Origin: Actinopolymorpha alba DSM 45243
GTDB lineage: Bacteria > Actinomycetota > Actinomycetes > Propionibacteriales > Actinopolymorphaceae
Direction: 5' to 3'
Assembly: GCF_000373925.1 (NCBI RefSeq)
Contig: NZ_KB892748.1
Span: 1-64,000 of the forward strand
DNA length: 64,000 bases
Shown: one piece after another, positions 6,676 through 36,913 of the stretch
Position numbering within the stretch: the stretch's first letter is position 1
Layout: each line of letters begins with the position of its first letter
Made by a program: the position numbers and the translations under genes
Notes under the pieces: generated by a model
Database searches by the model: none
What the model was told of the DNA's origin: nothing
The model's input: only the letters and a program-made list of their open reading frames with translations

Positions 6676-7332
6676 GTGGCCGAACTCGTCTTCTTCACCG
6701 GGACCATGGACTGCGGCAAGTCGACGCTCGCGCTTCAGATGGATCACAACGCGCGTCAACGCGGACTTGCTGGGCGACTCTTCACCTGCCATGACCGGGC
6801 CGGTGACGCGACCCTGTCCAGTCGCCTCGGCCTGGCTGTGTCCGCGATCGAGGTGAAGCCCGATCTCAACCTGCAGCGGCACGTGGTGTCGGAGATGACC
6901 TCCGGCGCGCGGATCGACTACCTCATCTGCGACGAGGCGCAGTTCTACTCGGCGGAGCAGGTGGAGCAGCTCGGCCGGATCGTCGACGACCTCGGCGTGG
7001 AGGTGTACGCGTTCGGCATCCTCACCGACTTCCGGACCCGGTTGTTCGAGGGAAGCCAGCGGCTGGTGGAGATGGCGGACCGGGTCGAAATCCTCCAGGT
7101 GCAGGCGCTGTGCTGGTGCGGGCGGCGCGGCACCCACAACGCCCGCACAGTCGGCGGTGCGATGGTGACCGAAGGCGAGCAGGTGGTCGTGGGGGACACC
7201 AAGGACGGAACGGCACTCGACCTGGGCTACGAGGTGCTGTGCCGGCGCCACCACCGTCGCGGCATGACCGCGCAGGTCGCGAACGCCGGCGCGCTCTCGC
7301 CCGACGTACTCCCGTTTGGCGCCCAGTCCTGA
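6676..7332 (+). CDS. tdk: thymidine kinase
   Basis: The 218-residue type II thymidine kinase phosphorylates thymidine for the salvage pathway. The P-loop is GTMDCGKST at residues 9-17 and the Walker B-like ICDEAQF follows. A C-terminal zinc site is supplied by CWCGRRGTHN and CRRHH, and the lasso-loop region is present. The GTG at 6676 is chosen because the kinase fold begins there; the frame can open at an ATG 36 bases earlier, but with no conserved residues. The gene ends convergently with the M20 peptidase. Confidence 0.92.
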   Translation: MAELVFFTGTMDCGKSTLALQMDHNARQRGLAGRLFTCHDRAGDATLSSRLGLAVSAIEVKPDLNLQRHVVSEMTSGARIDYLICDEAQFYSAEQVEQLGRIVDDLGVEVYAFGILTDFRTRLFEGSQRLVEMADRVEILQVQALCWCGRRGTHNARTVGGAMVTEGEQVVVGDTKDGTALDLGYEVLCRRHHRRGMTAQVANAGALSPDVLPFGAQS

Positions 7333-9680: not shown

Positions 9681-9844
9681 CGCTGCGATCCCTCCTCGTC
9701 CGGCCGCCACCACGTCGGCTTGGGGTCTGAGGTGCAGCCTTTCAGATCTGCCTCGTGGGCGTGCCGGGCCGCGGCTGTTCTGATGGTCCATTCCCGGCCG
9801 GCCACCGTCCTGGTCCGGCGAGGTCACCTGCGAGACTTCCGGTC

Positions 9845-10696
9845 ATGAGCGCGCTCATCTCCGCCAGCGACCTGGCCAAGGCACTCTCGTCTGACCAGCC
9901 GCCCGTGGTTCTCGACGTTCGGTGGTCCCTGACCGGGCCGTCGAAGGCCGACACGTACGCCGACGGTCACGTTCCCGGTGCGCGCTTCGTCGAGCTTGAC
10001 GCGGCGCTCTCGGCCCCACCGGTAGGCGCCGGGCCACGCCACCCGGGCGGCCGGCATCCGCTGCCCGACCCGCAGGTGTTCGAGAACGCCATGGGGACGG
10101 CGGGCGTGTCACGGACCTCGACCGTCGTGGTGTACGGCGATCCGGACGGCTTCGGACCGGCCCGGGCGTGGTGGTGCCTGCGCTACTTCGGGCACGAGGC
10201 GGTGCGGGTCCTCGATGGTGGCTACGCCGCCTGGACCGAGGCCGGCCTGCCGATCGAGACGGGCCTATCCGACGTCGCGCCCGGAGATTTCGAGGCGCGG
10301 GCCGGGGGGATGGCGATGCTCGATGCCGGCGAGGCCGCCAAGGTCGCCCGGGCGGGCGTACTGCTCGACGCACGGGCCGGCGAACGCTACCGGGGTGAGG
10401 TGGAGCCGATTGACCCCGCTGGCGGGCACATCCCTGGCGCGCTCAACGCACCCACGGCCGAGAACCTCGACGCCGCCGGCCGGTTTCGATCGGTTGATGC
10501 GCTTCGGGAGCGATTCGCGTCGCTCGGGCTCGGGGGGTCTGGACCCGTCGGCGTCTACTGCGGCTCCGGCGTGAGCGCCGCCCAGGAAGTCCTCGCCCTG
10601 GAGTTGGCGGGAATCCACGCGGCGTTGTACGTCGGTTCCTGGTCGGACTGGGTGTCTGACCCCGACCGTCCCGTCGCGACCGGCGCCACGCCCTAG
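9845..10696 (+). CDS. sseA: thiosulfate/3-mercaptopyruvate sulfurtransferase
   Basis: The 283-residue protein has two tandem rhodanese domains. The N-terminal one lacks a catalytic cysteine. The C-terminal one carries the loop VYCGSGVSA with the persulfide-forming Cys at about residue 239. It transfers sulfane sulfur from thiosulfate or 3-mercaptopyruvate to thiol acceptors. The CGSGVSA loop is closer to the mercaptopyruvate type (CGSGVTA). The start at 9845 matches the beginning of the first domain. It faces the unknown 138-aa gene, whose leader peptide is cysteine-rich, so both may touch sulfur metabolism. Confidence 0.88.
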   Translation: MSALISASDLAKALSSDQPPVVLDVRWSLTGPSKADTYADGHVPGARFVELDAALSAPPVGAGPRHPGGRHPLPDPQVFENAMGTAGVSRTSTVVVYGDPDGFGPARAWWCLRYFGHEAVRVLDGGYAAWTEAGLPIETGLSDVAPGDFEARAGGMAMLDAGEAAKVARAGVLLDARAGERYRGEVEPIDPAGGHIPGALNAPTAENLDAAGRFRSVDALRERFASLGLGGSGPVGVYCGSGVSAAQEVLALELAGIHAALYVGSWSDWVSDPDRPVATGATP

Positions 10697-10709
10697 GTCG
10701 GGCTGGACG

Positions 10710-11126
10710 TCAGCGTCGGGCCGCCTCGACGGGCGCGAAGAGCTCGGCCAGGAGGTCGTCGAAGAGCGGTGCGGCCTCGGCGACCGACAACAATCCCGCT
10801 TCATGCCCCCGCCAGCCGCGAACCGTGGCGCCGTCGTACCTCGCCGCGTCGATCGGTCGGGCGCTCGTACGAATTACCAGGCGGGCGCGGGCGCTGGGAG
10901 CTGGAAGGTGCTCACCGCACCCGCAGTCGCAGCGGCCGGCGGGTACGACGAAGAAGAGGTCCGCCTCGGCGTACCGCTCCAGGCTGACGTTCGTCCCCTG
11001 GCACCGGAACTGCAGCAGATCGCCGCCGGGCAGCAGCGCCCAGAGGCGTACCGGCACGGGATGACTTGGCGGGAGGACCCGGAATCCTCGGTCGGACAGC
11101 TGGCGGGCCCAGGTGGCGAAATCCAT
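10710..11126 (-). CDS. hypothetical protein with CxCxC motif
   Basis: I do not recognise this 138-residue soluble protein. It has a compact mixed alpha/beta look, with a clustered RCDCGCGEH motif (three Cys and a His within nine residues) that could bind a metal. The rest is rich in acidic and hydrophobic helices, ending in FDDLLAELFAPVEAARR. The ATG at 11126 has AAGGACG a few bases upstream. A 12-codon cysteine-rich reading frame ends 61 bases before the start codon (11188-11226), which suggests control by cysteine supply. It converges on sseA. Confidence 0.6.
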   Translation of the reverse strand: MDFATWARQLSDRGFRVLPPSHPVPVRLWALLPGGDLLQFRCQGTNVSLERYAEADLFFVVPAGRCDCGCGEHLPAPSARARLVIRTSARPIDAARYDGATVRGWRGHEAGLLSVAEAAPLFDDLLAELFAPVEAARR

Positions 11127-11187
11127 GAAGGACGTCCTTGCGGCTGGTTGTCGCGGGTGCGGCCAGCGGGCCGCGAGACCTGAGAGG

Positions 11188-11226
11188 TCAGCGACAACAA
11201 CAGCGGCAGAGGACGTCAAAACGCAT
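11188..11226 (-). CDS. polycysteine leader peptide (12 aa)
   Basis: The frame encodes MRFDVLCRCCCR and then stops. Four of the last six residues are cysteine, three of them consecutive. It lies on the same strand as, and just 5' of, the unknown CxCxC protein. Short Cys-rich upstream frames are an established cysteine-responsive attenuator class in mycobacteria and other actinobacteria, usually leaderless. Here CACAAT lies six bases upstream of the ATG, compatible with a leaderless transcript, although no clear -35 box is seen. Function is inferred from composition and position. Confidence 0.6.
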   Translation of the reverse strand: MRFDVLCRCCCR

Positions 11227-11320
11227 GGCTGGATTGTGCCAGGCGGGTCCGGAGACCGGACTACCGGGGCCCACAGACTCCGCCGCCGGCTCCTTACGAG
11301 CCGGATCATCCTGTCCGGCG

Positions 11321-13411
11321 TCATGTGCCGGAGGGCGGATAGACCTCCAGTTCGTAGACGCGCGTGGTCTTCTCGTCGACGGAATCGGCGACCGGTTTGG
11401 TGATGAGGAGGCGTACGTAGCGCGCCGTGAATGTGGGAACCGTCCGGTCCGTGACCGCTGACCCGTTGTCCAGCACGCTGTCTCGGTTGGTCCATTGCTT
11501 GTTGTTGTCACTGGATTGGAGTACGAAGTCGCGCGTGTTGAGGGTGGCGTCCAGACCGCCTGCCTGGGCGTGCTTGACCACGTAGCGGCCGATCGAGTGG
11601 CTGGATCCGAGGTCGACGGCGAGCCATGTGGCGCCGTGGCCGGAGGGGTTCACCCAGGCGTCTAGTTCGGGATCGGAGAGCTGGGCGTCCGTCACGTGGT
11701 TGGCGCTGGAGTTGGCGGAGTCGGCAGTCACCGGCTTGTACAACGCCAGGTTCGGGGGACTGGCCCCGGCGTCACTGAGAACCTCGAACTCCAGAACGCG
11801 AGTGGTGCTGTCCGCGGTCTGGGTGGGCTTGGTGACGCGTAGTCGGACGTAGCGGGCGCTGACCGGGTTCGGTAACAGTCGATCAGTGAGATTCTCGGTG
11901 TTGCCGGTGACGGCGTCGACCGTGCGCCATGGTCCTCCGGGCCGGTCCGACAGCTCGACGGAGAAGTCACGGGTGTTGAGGGCGGTTCCGAAGGGGCTCC
12001 CGCCGTAGCCGGCGTGCTTGACGCGGTAGCCGGATATCTTCCGGGTGGCGCCAAGGTCGACGGACAGCCAAGCGTTCCGTGCCGCGTCGGCGCTCCAGCC
12101 GTCCTCGAACTCGTCCCAGGTGCCGTCGGTCGCCTTGGCCGCCGTGGCCTGTCCGCGGCTCGAGGAGGTCGGTCGCCCCGCCGCGAGGTTGGTCGTCGCC
12201 CTCGGTGCAGGGGGAGTTGTCGCTGGTTTGTTCAGGTCCAGCCAGACGAACCGGGGCCGGTAGATTTCGGTGGTGAGCGGGTCGCCGCCAATCCTGTTGA
12301 CGTTGTAGCTGACCAGGAGCCTGCCCTTCTCAGACAGGCTCGGATGCGCCTTGGCGTTGTAGCAGTACGTCATTCCCTCCGTTTGCGAGCCAAAAATGTA
12401 GGGCTCCGGGCAGTTGTAGAAGCGAACGCCCGCGGAGAACGGCCCATTCGGGGTGTCGCCCACGGCGTATTCCAAAGCGGTCGACATGACGTTGCGGGTG
12501 TAGACCAGGAGGTACTTTCCGGCGTACCTGCCGGTCGTGATCGGGGTGACGCTCAGCTCCGTCGACACGTCGGAGTGCAGAACCGCGGCGTCGTGTTCGG
12601 CCACGGAGATGTCGGGGCTCCACTCGCTGCCGCTCCAGAAACGCCAAGGTGAGCTTGCACTGCCATCCGGCCGCGGCATGTCGGCGAAGTCCGCCCTTGG
12701 AACTCGGGCGACGACGAGGTCCTTGTGTGCGTCGAGGAGTGTGTTGCGGTAGCCGTACACATAGACGTATCCGTCCACCGCGGAGTTGTCCATGATTCCC
12801 ACGCCGAACATCACGATGTACCTGCTGTTGCGGATAAGCAGGCCGACATCCTCAGTCCTGCGGACCGAGCTGTAGTCGGGTACGCCACCGACGATCGGCA
12901 TCGAGAACAGGTCCACCCGGGACGCGTTCCAGTTGGAGTCGAATGCGAAGCCGGTCGCGTAGACGGTGTCCCCGATGGCGATTCCGTCGTTCATCCAGTC
13001 ATGGCTGCGAAAGGCGCCGCCCGCCGGGGTGACGAAGCTCGCCCGCTTGGGGTTGGGCTGGTTGCCGTTCAGCACGGCCGAGGAGTTGTTGAGGAAACCG
13101 GTCTGCTCGTAGGTCAGGTCGAACGGGTCGGCTGTGCCCACGCGGGTGTCGCTGAAGATGAACATGGTCCGCGACGAAGGTGTCGCCTCGCTCACGCCGT
13201 CCCGTCCGTCGAGGGGGACCGAGAAGATGCCGTCGGCACCAAGCCATCCGGAGGTGCGGTTGAACAGCTGGGTCCACTCGTCGGCCCTGGTGGCGGCCAG
13301 CGGGGCATCGTGGGAACTGGATGTCTCGGCAAGCGAGGGTGTGGCTCCGATCCCGACGGAACACGTGAGCAGCGCCGCCGCGGCCGTGGTACCCCAAGCT
13401 CTCATGCGCAT
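11321..13411 (-). CDS. secreted DUF4185 protein with two F5/8-type C (discoidin) domains
   Basis: The 696-residue exported protein begins with a signal peptide (residues 1-28, cleavage after PSLA). A DUF4185 beta-propeller-like domain (about 40-390) contains MFIFSDTRVG and GKYLLVYTRN-type strands. Two F5/8 type C / CBM32-like domains follow at about 405-550 and 555-695, each with a LAxxxPxxASS-like entry and a terminal TRVxEFEV/TRVYELEV strand. CBM32-like domains bind sugars on polysaccharides or glycans, so this is probably an extracellular carbohydrate-acting or carbohydrate-binding protein. The divergent GntR-LacI regulator probably controls it. Confidence 0.8.
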   Translation of the reverse strand: MRMRAWGTTAAAALLTCSVGIGATPSLAETSSSHDAPLAATRADEWTQLFNRTSGWLGADGIFSVPLDGRDGVSEATPSSRTMFIFSDTRVGTADPFDLTYEQTGFLNNSSAVLNGNQPNPKRASFVTPAGGAFRSHDWMNDGIAIGDTVYATGFAFDSNWNASRVDLFSMPIVGGVPDYSSVRRTEDVGLLIRNSRYIVMFGVGIMDNSAVDGYVYVYGYRNTLLDAHKDLVVARVPRADFADMPRPDGSASSPWRFWSGSEWSPDISVAEHDAAVLHSDVSTELSVTPITTGRYAGKYLLVYTRNVMSTALEYAVGDTPNGPFSAGVRFYNCPEPYIFGSQTEGMTYCYNAKAHPSLSEKGRLLVSYNVNRIGGDPLTTEIYRPRFVWLDLNKPATTPPAPRATTNLAAGRPTSSSRGQATAAKATDGTWDEFEDGWSADAARNAWLSVDLGATRKISGYRVKHAGYGGSPFGTALNTRDFSVELSDRPGGPWRTVDAVTGNTENLTDRLLPNPVSARYVRLRVTKPTQTADSTTRVLEFEVLSDAGASPPNLALYKPVTADSANSSANHVTDAQLSDPELDAWVNPSGHGATWLAVDLGSSHSIGRYVVKHAQAGGLDATLNTRDFVLQSSDNNKQWTNRDSVLDNGSAVTDRTVPTFTARYVRLLITKPVADSVDEKTTRVYELEVYPPSGT

Positions 13412-13679
13412 CTCGCCATCTCCTTGTGCCGTCCGGTCGCCTGTGTCGTTTCAAGTGATGAGGTCATGCGCTGACATAGGCCCGATGCGGGCACCCGGAT
13501 CGGGCCGTCCGACGCAGTGTTTACCTGGCCGCTATACTTGTCAACACTTCATTACAAGGTTTCATGCTGCTCCATCCCGGTGACATCTCGGCGAACCGTG
13601 CGCCCGACCGTGCGCCCGGCGCCGACCGGAGGGTGAGAACCTAAGGCGGAGGCGAACGACCGGAGAGGAGGGCACTTCC
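13412..13679. promoter_or_regulatory. divergent promoter region, DUF4185 protein / GntR-LacI regulator
   Basis: The 268-bp gap contains TATACT (13533-13538) as a -10 candidate for the + strand regulator. On the minus strand TTGACA (13544-13539) is a consensus -35 candidate for the secreted protein. Both overlap an interrupted palindrome, CTTGT-N12-ACAAG (13537-13558), which is a candidate operator for the neighbouring regulator. A hairpin (GGCCCGAT 13479-13486 with ATCGGGCC 13499-13506) lies in the presumed 5' leader of the secreted gene. A strong AGGAGGG site precedes the GTG at 13680. Confidence 0.4.
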
Positions 13680-14861
13680 GTGCCGGCAAGTCCTTCGCCT
13701 GCGGGCAGGCTGGGCGACCTGGACCGCAACAGCCCGGTCCCCCTTTATCACCAGCTCGAACGCGCGTTCCTCCGGTTGATCGCTGACGACAACCTCGTGC
13801 CGGGATCGCGTTTCCCCTCCGAAACCGAGCTCTGTGCGAGGTTCGAGGTCACCCGACCGACCGTCCGGCAGGCTCTGGAACGCCTCGTCCGGGTCGGCGT
13901 GCTGCGCAAGGAACGCGGCCGTGGCACCTACGTCGCCAACGTGCCGGAGCCCGATCCCGGCCCTACGGCCGTGCTCACCGTCAAGGTCGTGATGCCGAGC
14001 CTGAACGAGCTGATCCACCTGCAGGTGCTCTCCGGCATCGTCGACCAGGCACACGACGACGGCCTGCAGGTCGTGCTCGCCCACTCCGACGGCCGTCGCG
14101 CCGCACAGGAACGCGAGCTCGACCGCGCCGACGGCCTGGCCGGTGTCCTGCTCTGGCCAATCAGTGCGAGCCCGCGTCGCAGCAAGGCCCTGCAACACCT
14201 GCGTGACAGGGGGATTCCCGTGGTCTTCGTCGACCGCTACCTCGACGAGCGTTCGGACCACGTGGTCGTCGATGACGAGTCGGGTGGCCGCCAGGTCACC
14301 GAGCACCTGACCGGTCTCGGCCACCGGCGGATCGCGTTCGTCCATGCCGAGAGCGCGACGTTGAGCAGCGTCCGGCTCCGGAGGAACGGCTATCGGCAGG
14401 CCCTCCAGTCGGCCGGGCTGCTCATCGATGATGCCCTCGTCCTGCGACTACCCGAGTCCGGGTCGTACGACGTGCTCGTCGCGCACCTGCTCGGGCTGCC
14501 GGATCCGCCCACGGCCGCGTTCTGCGTGAACGACGTCGTCGCTGTTGGGCTGGCCGCTGCCTTCGCCCGTCGCGGGATCGACGTGCCGTCCGGCTTCTCG
14601 GTCGCGGGGTTCGACGCACTGGAAAGGCTTCCGAGCGGCGGGACCATCACCTCGGTCCGGCGCGCGACCGACGAGCTGGGGCGCGAGGCGATCCGGCTCC
14701 TCGCAGGACGGCTACGGAGCCAAGGCGTGGACGACCAACCGCGACACGTCACACTCCCCACCACGCTGGTGACCGGAGACACCACCGGCACCCCGCCAAT
14801 CGCACCGCAAGCGCCGACTGGACGCCGCGATCCAGCCCGATCTAGGGGACACGCCGGCTAG
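13680..14861 (+). CDS. GntR-LacI chimeric transcriptional regulator (AraR-like)
   Basis: The 393-residue regulator combines a GntR winged helix (about residues 15-80: PLYHQLERAFLRLI, PSETELCARFEVTRPTVRQAL, KERGRGTYVA) with a LacI/periplasmic-binding-type sensor domain (about 100-370). The latter contains GLGHRRIAFV and the FCVNDVVAVGLAAAF segment. This architecture is that of AraR, a sugar-responsive repressor. The GTG start is preceded by AGGAGGG. It is transcribed away from the secreted DUF4185/discoidin gene, the natural candidate target; the ligand is probably a sugar released outside the cell. Confidence 0.88.
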   Translation: MPASPSPAGRLGDLDRNSPVPLYHQLERAFLRLIADDNLVPGSRFPSETELCARFEVTRPTVRQALERLVRVGVLRKERGRGTYVANVPEPDPGPTAVLTVKVVMPSLNELIHLQVLSGIVDQAHDDGLQVVLAHSDGRRAAQERELDRADGLAGVLLWPISASPRRSKALQHLRDRGIPVVFVDRYLDERSDHVVVDDESGGRQVTEHLTGLGHRRIAFVHAESATLSSVRLRRNGYRQALQSAGLLIDDALVLRLPESGSYDVLVAHLLGLPDPPTAAFCVNDVVAVGLAAAFARRGIDVPSGFSVAGFDALERLPSGGTITSVRRATDELGREAIRLLAGRLRSQGVDDQPRHVTLPTTLVTGDTTGTPPIAPQAPTGRRDPARSRGHAG

Positions 14862-36287: not shown

Positions 36288-36905
36288 TCAGCCCAGCATC
36301 GAGGGGTTGGAAGCAGGCGTAGCGGCCGCGGGAGTCTCATCCTGCGAGGGCTGTGGTGCGACGATCTTCGCGACCGCGTCGCGCGTGAGTTCGCGGTCGG
36401 CGGGCTCGGGGTCCAGCGCACGGTGGATCGCCACGCCCTCGATGAGGGCGTCAAGCTGGCGGGCCGTGCGGGGGTCGAAGTGCCGTTCGAGTTCGTGGCG
36501 GCTGCGTTGCATCCAGGTGCTGGTGATCTGGCGGAACCTCGGGTCGCGCGCCGCCAGCGTGTACAGCTCGTAGGTGATCACCTGGTCGCGGTTGCTCTGC
36601 TGGTCTGACAGGTGGTGGATCAGGTCGACGACCATGGCCTGGGCCTGCGTGGTGTCGGCCGCGGCACCCAGACGTGCCGCGAAGGTATCTGCGATCGAGT
36701 TCGCGAAGCGGGTGAACGCCTCGTACAGCAGGTCGTCCAGCCCGTTGAAGTGGTAGGAGAGTGACCCGAGGGGCACGTCCGCGCGTGCGGTGATCTTGCG
36801 ATGAGAAATGCCCGCGACACCGATCTCGGCGATGAGGTCGATCGTGATGTCGATCAGGCGGTCTCGTCGGCCGGGATCGGTGCGGCGGGCTCTCACGGTG
36901 CTCAT
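36288..36905 (-). CDS. TetR-family transcriptional regulator
   Basis: The 205-residue repressor has an N-terminal HTH (about residues 12-58: RLIDITIDLIAEIGVAGISHRKITARADVPLGSLSYHF) and a helical ligand-binding domain of the TetR_C type. The start at 36905 lies eight bases after the acetyltransferase stop, so the two form an operon. It is the obvious ligand-responsive binder for the 44-bp palindrome in the divergent promoter (37523-37566) and would then regulate its own operon and the MFS gene. Confidence 0.88.
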   Translation of the reverse strand: MSTVRARRTDPGRRDRLIDITIDLIAEIGVAGISHRKITARADVPLGSLSYHFNGLDDLLYEAFTRFANSIADTFAARLGAAADTTQAQAMVVDLIHHLSDQQSNRDQVITYELYTLAARDPRFRQITSTWMQRSRHELERHFDPRTARQLDALIEGVAIHRALDPEPADRELTRDAVAKIVAPQPSQDETPAAATPASNPSMLG

Positions 36906-36913
36906 CGGGACGG

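Follow-up and report, generated by a model that had tools for sequence, protein, structure and literature searches.

A putative cysteine-responsive attenuator upstream of an uncharacterised protein family in Actinopolymorpha alba and related actinobacteria

Introduction

The polycysteine leaderless short open reading frames (sORFs) of mycobacteria, the subject of Canestrari et al. in 2020, reportedly act as cysteine-responsive attenuators. Conserved leaderless Cys-rich uORFs before cysA2, Rv0485 and nirA were detected by ribosome profiling, according to the available excerpts of Shell et al. (2015; PMC4633059), and a survey of 2005, in the part of its text available, names candidate Cys leader peptides for the cys operons of Mycobacterium and Propionibacterium acnes and for cbs of Bifidobacterium longum (PMC1262725). 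The same part of that survey reports no conserved terminator hairpin, proposes Rho for the mycobacterial cys leaders and leaves the mode of regulation open (PMC1262725). Leader peptides are also annotated in the NCBIfam entries NF042933 (Ms5788A), NF042934 (cis_reg_atten) and NF042936 (Ms4527A), two of which are named Cys-rich.

The locus considered here lies in a window of 64,000 nucleotides (the whole stretch of DNA analysed; contig NZ_KB892748.1, positions 1 to 64,000) of Actinopolymorpha alba DSM 45243. It resembles the mycobacterial polycysteine attenuators, as the available excerpts portray them (PMC9031893, PMC13236596, PMC9094748), in its leaderless-type sORF, which has contiguous Cys codons and precedes the putatively controlled gene, and in the translational attenuation proposed here, by which stalling would unmask the Shine-Dalgarno (SD) sequence; it differs from them in occurring in other genera, in having an uncharacterised target family and in that the open frame ending in the leader matches no NCBIfam leader family. 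With the uORFs of cysA2, Rv0485 and nirA, in so far as the excerpts of PMC4633059 extend, it has in common conservation, a leaderless-type start, richness in Cys and a place before sulfur or hypothetical genes, whereas the target is different and the evidence is ribosome profiling there and comparison alone here. The candidate leaders of 2005 share with it the runs of Cys codons near the stop and the lack of a terminator, and what distinguishes the present case from them, to the extent covered by the excerpt, is the complementarity between SD region and leader that is kept in one family (PMC1262725). Queried with the 107-aa frame that ends in the window's leader (the 12-aa leader falls below the minimum length of the tool), the NCBIfam leader families, including the three entries named above, gave no match at E up to 10. 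Among the matches listed in the open-access literature, no paper deals with this leader or gene. The kind of attenuator is already known; the interest of this candidate lies in its orphan target.

Results

Leader frame and genomic surroundings

The preliminary description had placed a 12-codon Cys-rich frame at 11188-11226, before a gene for a 138-aa protein, and both its sequence and its coordinates proved exact: the minus-strand codons from 11226 to 11188 read ATG CGT TTT GAC GTC CTC TGC CGC TGT TGT TGT CGC TGA (Table 1). A gap of 61 nt separates the leader from the gene, which has AAGGA 8 nt upstream of its ATG. The leader is at the same time the 3' end of a longer open frame, of 107 aa from a GTG at 11511; the ATG at 11226 is favoured over this upstream GTG because the promoter-like site and the relatives both point to it. 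When sORFs were defined by an ATG or GTG start, 8-25 codons and at least four Cys in the last six, exactly one was counted over both strands of the window, and the same definition gave none in 40 dinucleotide-shuffled windows.

Table 1. Features of the leader locus and its neighbours (window coordinates; MFE, the minimum-energy structure)
Feature	Position	Strand	Basis or remark
Extended -10-like element, TGG-CACAAT	11233..11241	-	sequence; 6 nt before leader ATG
Leader sORF, MRFDVLCRCCCR followed by the stop	11188..11226	-	sequence; counterpart in 47/47 same-order homologues
Anti-Shine-Dalgarno segment in leader, GACGTCCT	11210..11217	-	8-bp perfect pairing with 11131-11138 in MFE
Putative regulatory Cys codons	11194..11208	-	TGC, one Arg codon, then TGT TGT TGT
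Small internal hairpin directly 3' of leader	11177..11189	-	MFE structure
Second internal hairpin, GCGGCC/GGCCGC	11159..11174	-	MFE structure
GCGACAACCAGC, arm complementary to Cys-codon tract	11143..11154	-	MFE structure; just before SD
Shine-Dalgarno arm, AAGGACGTC	11131..11139	-	SD P(unpaired) 0.01 in free RNA
138-aa target gene, uncharacterised family	10710..11126	-	11126..10713 plus stop to 10710
Rhodanese-domain sulfurtransferase gene, tail-to-tail neighbour	9842..10696	+	PF00581, E 1.5e-27, two stretches

Upstream of the leader, an F5/8 type C gene and a GntR-type regulator gene intervene between it and sepH (DUF3071) in the window, whereas sepH is directly upstream in four of five congeners; leader, promoter-like site and gene remain together in spite of this difference upstream. 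Of the two intervening genes, which occupy 11321-14861, one codes for a protein whose F5/8 type C domains form two stretches and the other for a GntR-type regulator whose sensor domain is LacI-like; the loci of the five congeners showed neither gene, which suggests that this spot takes insertions.

Conservation within the order

When 196 genomes of the order were searched with a profile, 17 candidates being scored per genome, the 138-aa gene was detected in 47 of them, the own genome (7.98 Mb) included: eight in the window's family (f1), 38 in family f3, which we take to be Kribbella, and one (G502) in family f4. The nearest named relative found was Actinopolymorpha pittospori (70% identity), whose single place was encountered as L002, L016 and L055 and counted once. 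The class search gave the gene in 16 of 197 genomes (15 genomes of family f93 besides the own genome; 17 candidates scored per genome) and the phylum search in 2 of 396 (eight candidates scored per genome); because so few candidates were scored in each genome, absences in the phylum, class and order searches are weak evidence. G035 (E 4.4e-5 at first, absent from the order profile search), G248 (E 2e-4) and two partial extra matches in G459 were left out before leaders were counted.

A short ATG or GTG frame with 3-7 Cys precedes the gene in all 47 same-order homologues, its stop lying about 58-100 nt upstream of the gene; examples of the peptides are MSFRVLCRCCCC, MRSGVLHRCCCCC, VHSRMSCCCCR, MQMLCCCCCR and MHHLCCRCR. 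As a control, 21 whole neighbourhoods (519,978 bases, counting both strands) were scanned for sORFs with four or more Cys among their final eight residues. The scan returned 20 sORFs, each of them the leader itself, and the sole neighbourhood without a match was that of G502 (L144), whose leader has three Cys and falls under the cut-off. Conservation of the peptide upstream of homologues, which the preliminary description had put forward as a check, was borne out: all 47 same-order homologues, and 25 of the 26 testable ones from the Frankia group, have a Cys-rich leader.

Promoter-like site and leaderless-type start

The motif TGN[CT]ANNNT, defined after the sequences had been seen, occurs before the leader start in 25 of 26 loci, the exception (L022) having TATAGT without TG. 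This -10-like element stands 6-7 nt from the start in every one of the 26 loci except L036, with the leader start of six f3 loci set at the upstream in-frame ATG that fits the -10. No two-hexamer sigma-70 promoter was found by a scan of the window locus. Because the extended -10 sits 6-7 nt before the start, the mRNA would begin at the leader ATG, and the spacing fits transcription starting on the start codon, as in leaderless mRNAs.

Predicted leader RNA fold and masking of the Shine-Dalgarno sequence

The arrangement probably represents a cysteine-responsive translational attenuator before the 138-aa gene, a reading drawn from sequence and computation. Transcription would start at or next to the leader ATG and yield a leaderless mRNA that begins with the 12-codon sORF. 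With ample cysteinyl-tRNA, the ribosome would pass the Cys codons and exit at the UGA, after which a long imperfect helix would form, joining the 5' half of the leader (GACGUCCU) to the SD (AGGACGUC) and the Cys tract to GCGACAACCAGC, and the 138-aa gene would be translated poorly. When cysteine is short, the ribosome would stall on the Cys codons and cover leader segments of the helix, so that the SD would be freed.

The RNA from 11226 to 11120 has a predicted folding energy of -53.6 kcal/mol and a z of -5.97 (about -6.0), with none of 200 shuffles as good; the script applied to 160 window tiles gives z = -5.49 for the same leader. Mean z is -3.37 in f1 (8 loci) and -1.96 in f3 (18 loci), versus -0.45 (sd 1.17) for the 160 tiles, two of which reach -5 or lower, probably as both strands of 36801. 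Of the 107-nt tiles sampled from the window, 36801-36907 has the most unusual fold, on both strands. Leader nucleotides 10-17 (GACGUCCU) pair with the SD-containing AGGACGUC, and anti-SD pairing recurs in relatives, for example between GGCGTCCT and AGGACGCC. All but one of the 47 loci have, at a distance of 14-27 nt from the start of the gene, an arm of the AACCAGC, GAC-AC-CAGC or AACACAG type, a pattern written after the sequences had been seen. In the leaders of these 47 loci TGT accounts for 203 of 249 Cys codons, versus 4 of 35 Cys codons in nine window genes (Fisher p 3e-16, uncorrected for kinship and with the limits of the nine genes set by hand), and pairing with GACAAC or GACACC requires TGT as the Cys codon. 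RNAalifold on MAFFT alignments gave no structure common to all 47 loci. Rfam covariance models had no match at E up to 1 in 10000-12000, and in one Frankia locus there were two chance-level matches, far under the gathering scores.

With a modelled ribosome in place, P(unpaired) of the window's SD changes from 0.01 in the free RNA to 0.44 at the first Cys codon, 0.53 at the last and 0.19 at the stop. Mean values, free and stalled, are 0.23 and 0.40 in f1, and 0.40 and 0.43 in f3, where no clear effect is visible and the automatic choice of SD was poor for some loci. The gain in SD access on a modelled stall exceeds 0.1 in 11 of 26 loci (five of the eight f1 loci, six of the 18 f3 loci). Masking of the SD unless a ribosome occupies the Cys codons is predicted computationally for the window and for f1, and is unsupported in f3.

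Pairing of the leader with its own SD region predicts that own leader/TIR pairs outdo swapped ones. Such was the result in f1: over its eight loci, of which four are closely similar, three ways of choosing the segments gave permutation p of 0.0013, 0.0020 and 0.0007. When every distinct type had a single representative (five loci), the true pairing came first, first and second of 120, and the addition of G502 left it first, first and second of 720. The own pairs of f3 were no better than swapped ones (p 0.28-0.54; 0.16-0.39 for 28 distinct loci). For 37 distinct loci of all families p ranged from 0 to 0.0017, values that differences between families alone can yield; an eight-locus permutation set, in which two f3 loci had been picked after their pairing was seen, is not relied on. 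Compared with shuffled TIR sequences, the leader reached p of at most 0.05 in 35 of 47 loci and in all eight of f1. In f1, complementarity to the SD region is maintained through sequence change.

Frankia-group leaders and the alternative of transcriptional control

Frankia and its relatives contributed 12 loci by protein search and 15 of family f93 by class search, several of which coincide (L004 and L152, for instance, have the same leader at the same distance). A Cys-rich leader was found in all 12 and in 13 of 14 others, L160, which is cut at a contig end, having been dropped from the count; the single miss among testable loci is L159, with no Cys-rich leader. A scan of 350 nt had found none, and the resulting view that Frankia homologues have no leader was overturned by wider scans. 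The Frankia-group leader is a GTG frame shortly after GCATAAT that reads VT[LMIH]R or VTMC and has a Cys-rich end such as CPRCCPCPRAH; 22 of 25 are distinct by the segments compared. Its stop lies 331-489 nt upstream of the start of protein similarity, and the true distance may be somewhat shorter in L007 and L009-L012, because there the open frame extends upstream of that point.

In this group the codons that surround and follow the Cys run are paired with an element starting about 38-65 nt past the stop. This GGGCGCGAGGG-like element, which pairs with the end of the leader ORF, was seen in L003-L014 and L146-L158. For 22 distinct loci the leader-end helix averages -32.3 kcal/mol in own pairs versus -29.5 kcal/mol in swapped pairs, which are strong too, and none of 20,000 permutations was as good. 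The output step of the Frankia group must differ, because this helix excludes the SD of the gene, 330-490 nt away.

The same Cys sensor might act on transcription elongation, by Rho-dependent or other termination, and not on access to the SD. Such an output would agree with the distance of 330-490 nt and the conserved SD-free helix of the Frankia group, with the little masking seen in f3, and with the proposal of Rho for mycobacterial cys leaders in the available part of the 2005 survey (PMC1262725). At the window, however, the SD lies inside the predicted helix, complementarity to it is kept in f1, and no intrinsic terminator (GC stem and T run) was found in 10650-11400, which makes control of elongation an unlikely output. 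A classical attenuator with an intrinsic terminator was rejected for the locus. Translational attenuation through the SD remains the preferred reading for the window and f1.

Target protein and its neighbours

The description of the 138-aa protein as one of unknown function holds, in that no significant Pfam or NCBIfam family and no significant PDB sequence match was found (one match, E 1.4). Its model (pLDDT 88.7) consists of a helix, an antiparallel sheet and a helix. Foldseek returned a best E of 0.49, and VIA gave the actin-capping protein 4akr_B as its best match (Z 6.6, 4.7 Å over 91), besides Rv3902c 4o6g (Z 4.4, 4.1 Å over 76), SycT 2bsh_A (Z 4.3, 4.6 Å over 86) and the YbjN-family AmyR 5frk_B (Z 3.3, 5.9 Å over 91); these two methods showed no convincing fold relative, though one may exist, a Type III chaperone or YbjN-like fold being a candidate. 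The tail-to-tail rhodanese-type gene is convergent with the target in all eight f1 loci and in L144 of G502 (by tblastn for the relatives), and 13 f3 loci that were inspected have no such gene up to 6 kb away. The protein has no assigned sulfur function; a cysteine-related role, as the preliminary description proposed, is a reasonable supposition.

A rival reading takes the polycysteine nascent chain, or the peptide, to be a sensor of metals or thiol stress (Zn, Cu, Cd, oxidants); a stall would then have a cause other than a lack of Cys-tRNA. Runs of Cys could bind metal, and the CxCGCG or CGCG motif present in most f1 and f3 target proteins would suit such a sensor. It is, however, absent from nine aligned Frankia-group proteins whose loci nevertheless keep the leader, the peptide outside the Cys run varies while RNA complementarity in f1 is kept, and described polycysteine leaders are reported, in the available excerpt, to depend on cysteine availability (PMC9031893); sensing of metals or thiols is accordingly quite improbable, and a response to the supply of cysteine is retained as the preferred reading.

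Other leaders in the own genome

The NF042934 profile has three places above its cut-off in the genome of A. alba. The leader-like peptides noted in it include L079 and L085, over that cut-off, as well as L097 and L106, which fall short of it. One of the three places, L085, stands before a sodium:dicarboxylate symporter gene, and L097, with 25.2 bits in the genome search, precedes DUF4395 and rhodanese genes; with its first residue typed as M, the L097 peptide scores 40.1 bits (E 2e-10; cut-off 45) against NF042933 (Ms5788A) and 28.4 bits (cut-off 27) against NF042934. MTAPVTPLLVGRRHLDFGRMRSMLCLQAR, a weak match to Ms4527A (E 0.0034, below cut-off), precedes a sulfite/nitrite reductase gene (PF01077). 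Because of these peptides, similar to NF042934, NF042933 and Ms4527A, the organism seems to use cysteine leaders of known type at sulfur-related genes, and the window's candidate would be a further leader, of another sequence type, in the same genome.

The pattern TGYTGYTGYNNNTGA, which misses other leader types, gave 11 matches in the genome versus 23 for the reversed control, and only the window's own match resembles the leader described here. The scan also met short frames in L047, L048 and L051 that have three or four Cys at their ends and are not regulator-like in appearance. The leader ahead of the sulfite/nitrite reductase gene (locus L076 in G000:C2, read on the reverse strand, about 6688-6777 after reversal) is of another type, 29 aa long, with one Cys and the motif RRHLDF. 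Both observations weigh against the attenuator reading of the window's leader.

Discussion

The idea of a cysteine-sensing attenuator, raised when the frame was first described, gains support at the level of sequence from the conservation of the leader in many related soil bacteria, its leaderless-type start, the predicted pairing of the Cys tract just before the SD and the complementarity kept in f1. From this combination we infer transcription and translation of the leader, ribosome stalling within it, a response to cysteine, and a target that aids the cell in sulfur limitation. GC-rich intergenic DNA commonly holds short frames, yet a chance origin of this one is refuted by conservation and scarcely merits credence, as 40 shuffled windows gave none, every one of the 47 homologues has a counterpart and the 21 neighbourhoods hold no further sORF of the kind.

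More tentatively, and with rather less confidence than the attenuator itself, the 138-aa family may be a dedicated actinobacterial cysteine-shortage protein, perhaps a partner or adaptor in sulfur transfer, that nearly always comes with a Cys-rich leader; two RNA architectures, masking of the SD in f1 and a distant leader-end helix in the Frankia group, might then serve one sensor ahead of one and the same orphan gene.

The locus offers a comparative case for tracing SD masking through sequence change, and would carry ribosome-sensed cysteine control beyond the mycobacteria. An attenuator names the amino acid to which its gene answers, here cysteine, and for this reason the function of the 138-aa family becomes directly testable. 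Cysteine would in this way be attached to an unannotated protein family whose genes occur together with the leader in 47 genomes of a single order as well as in the Frankia group.
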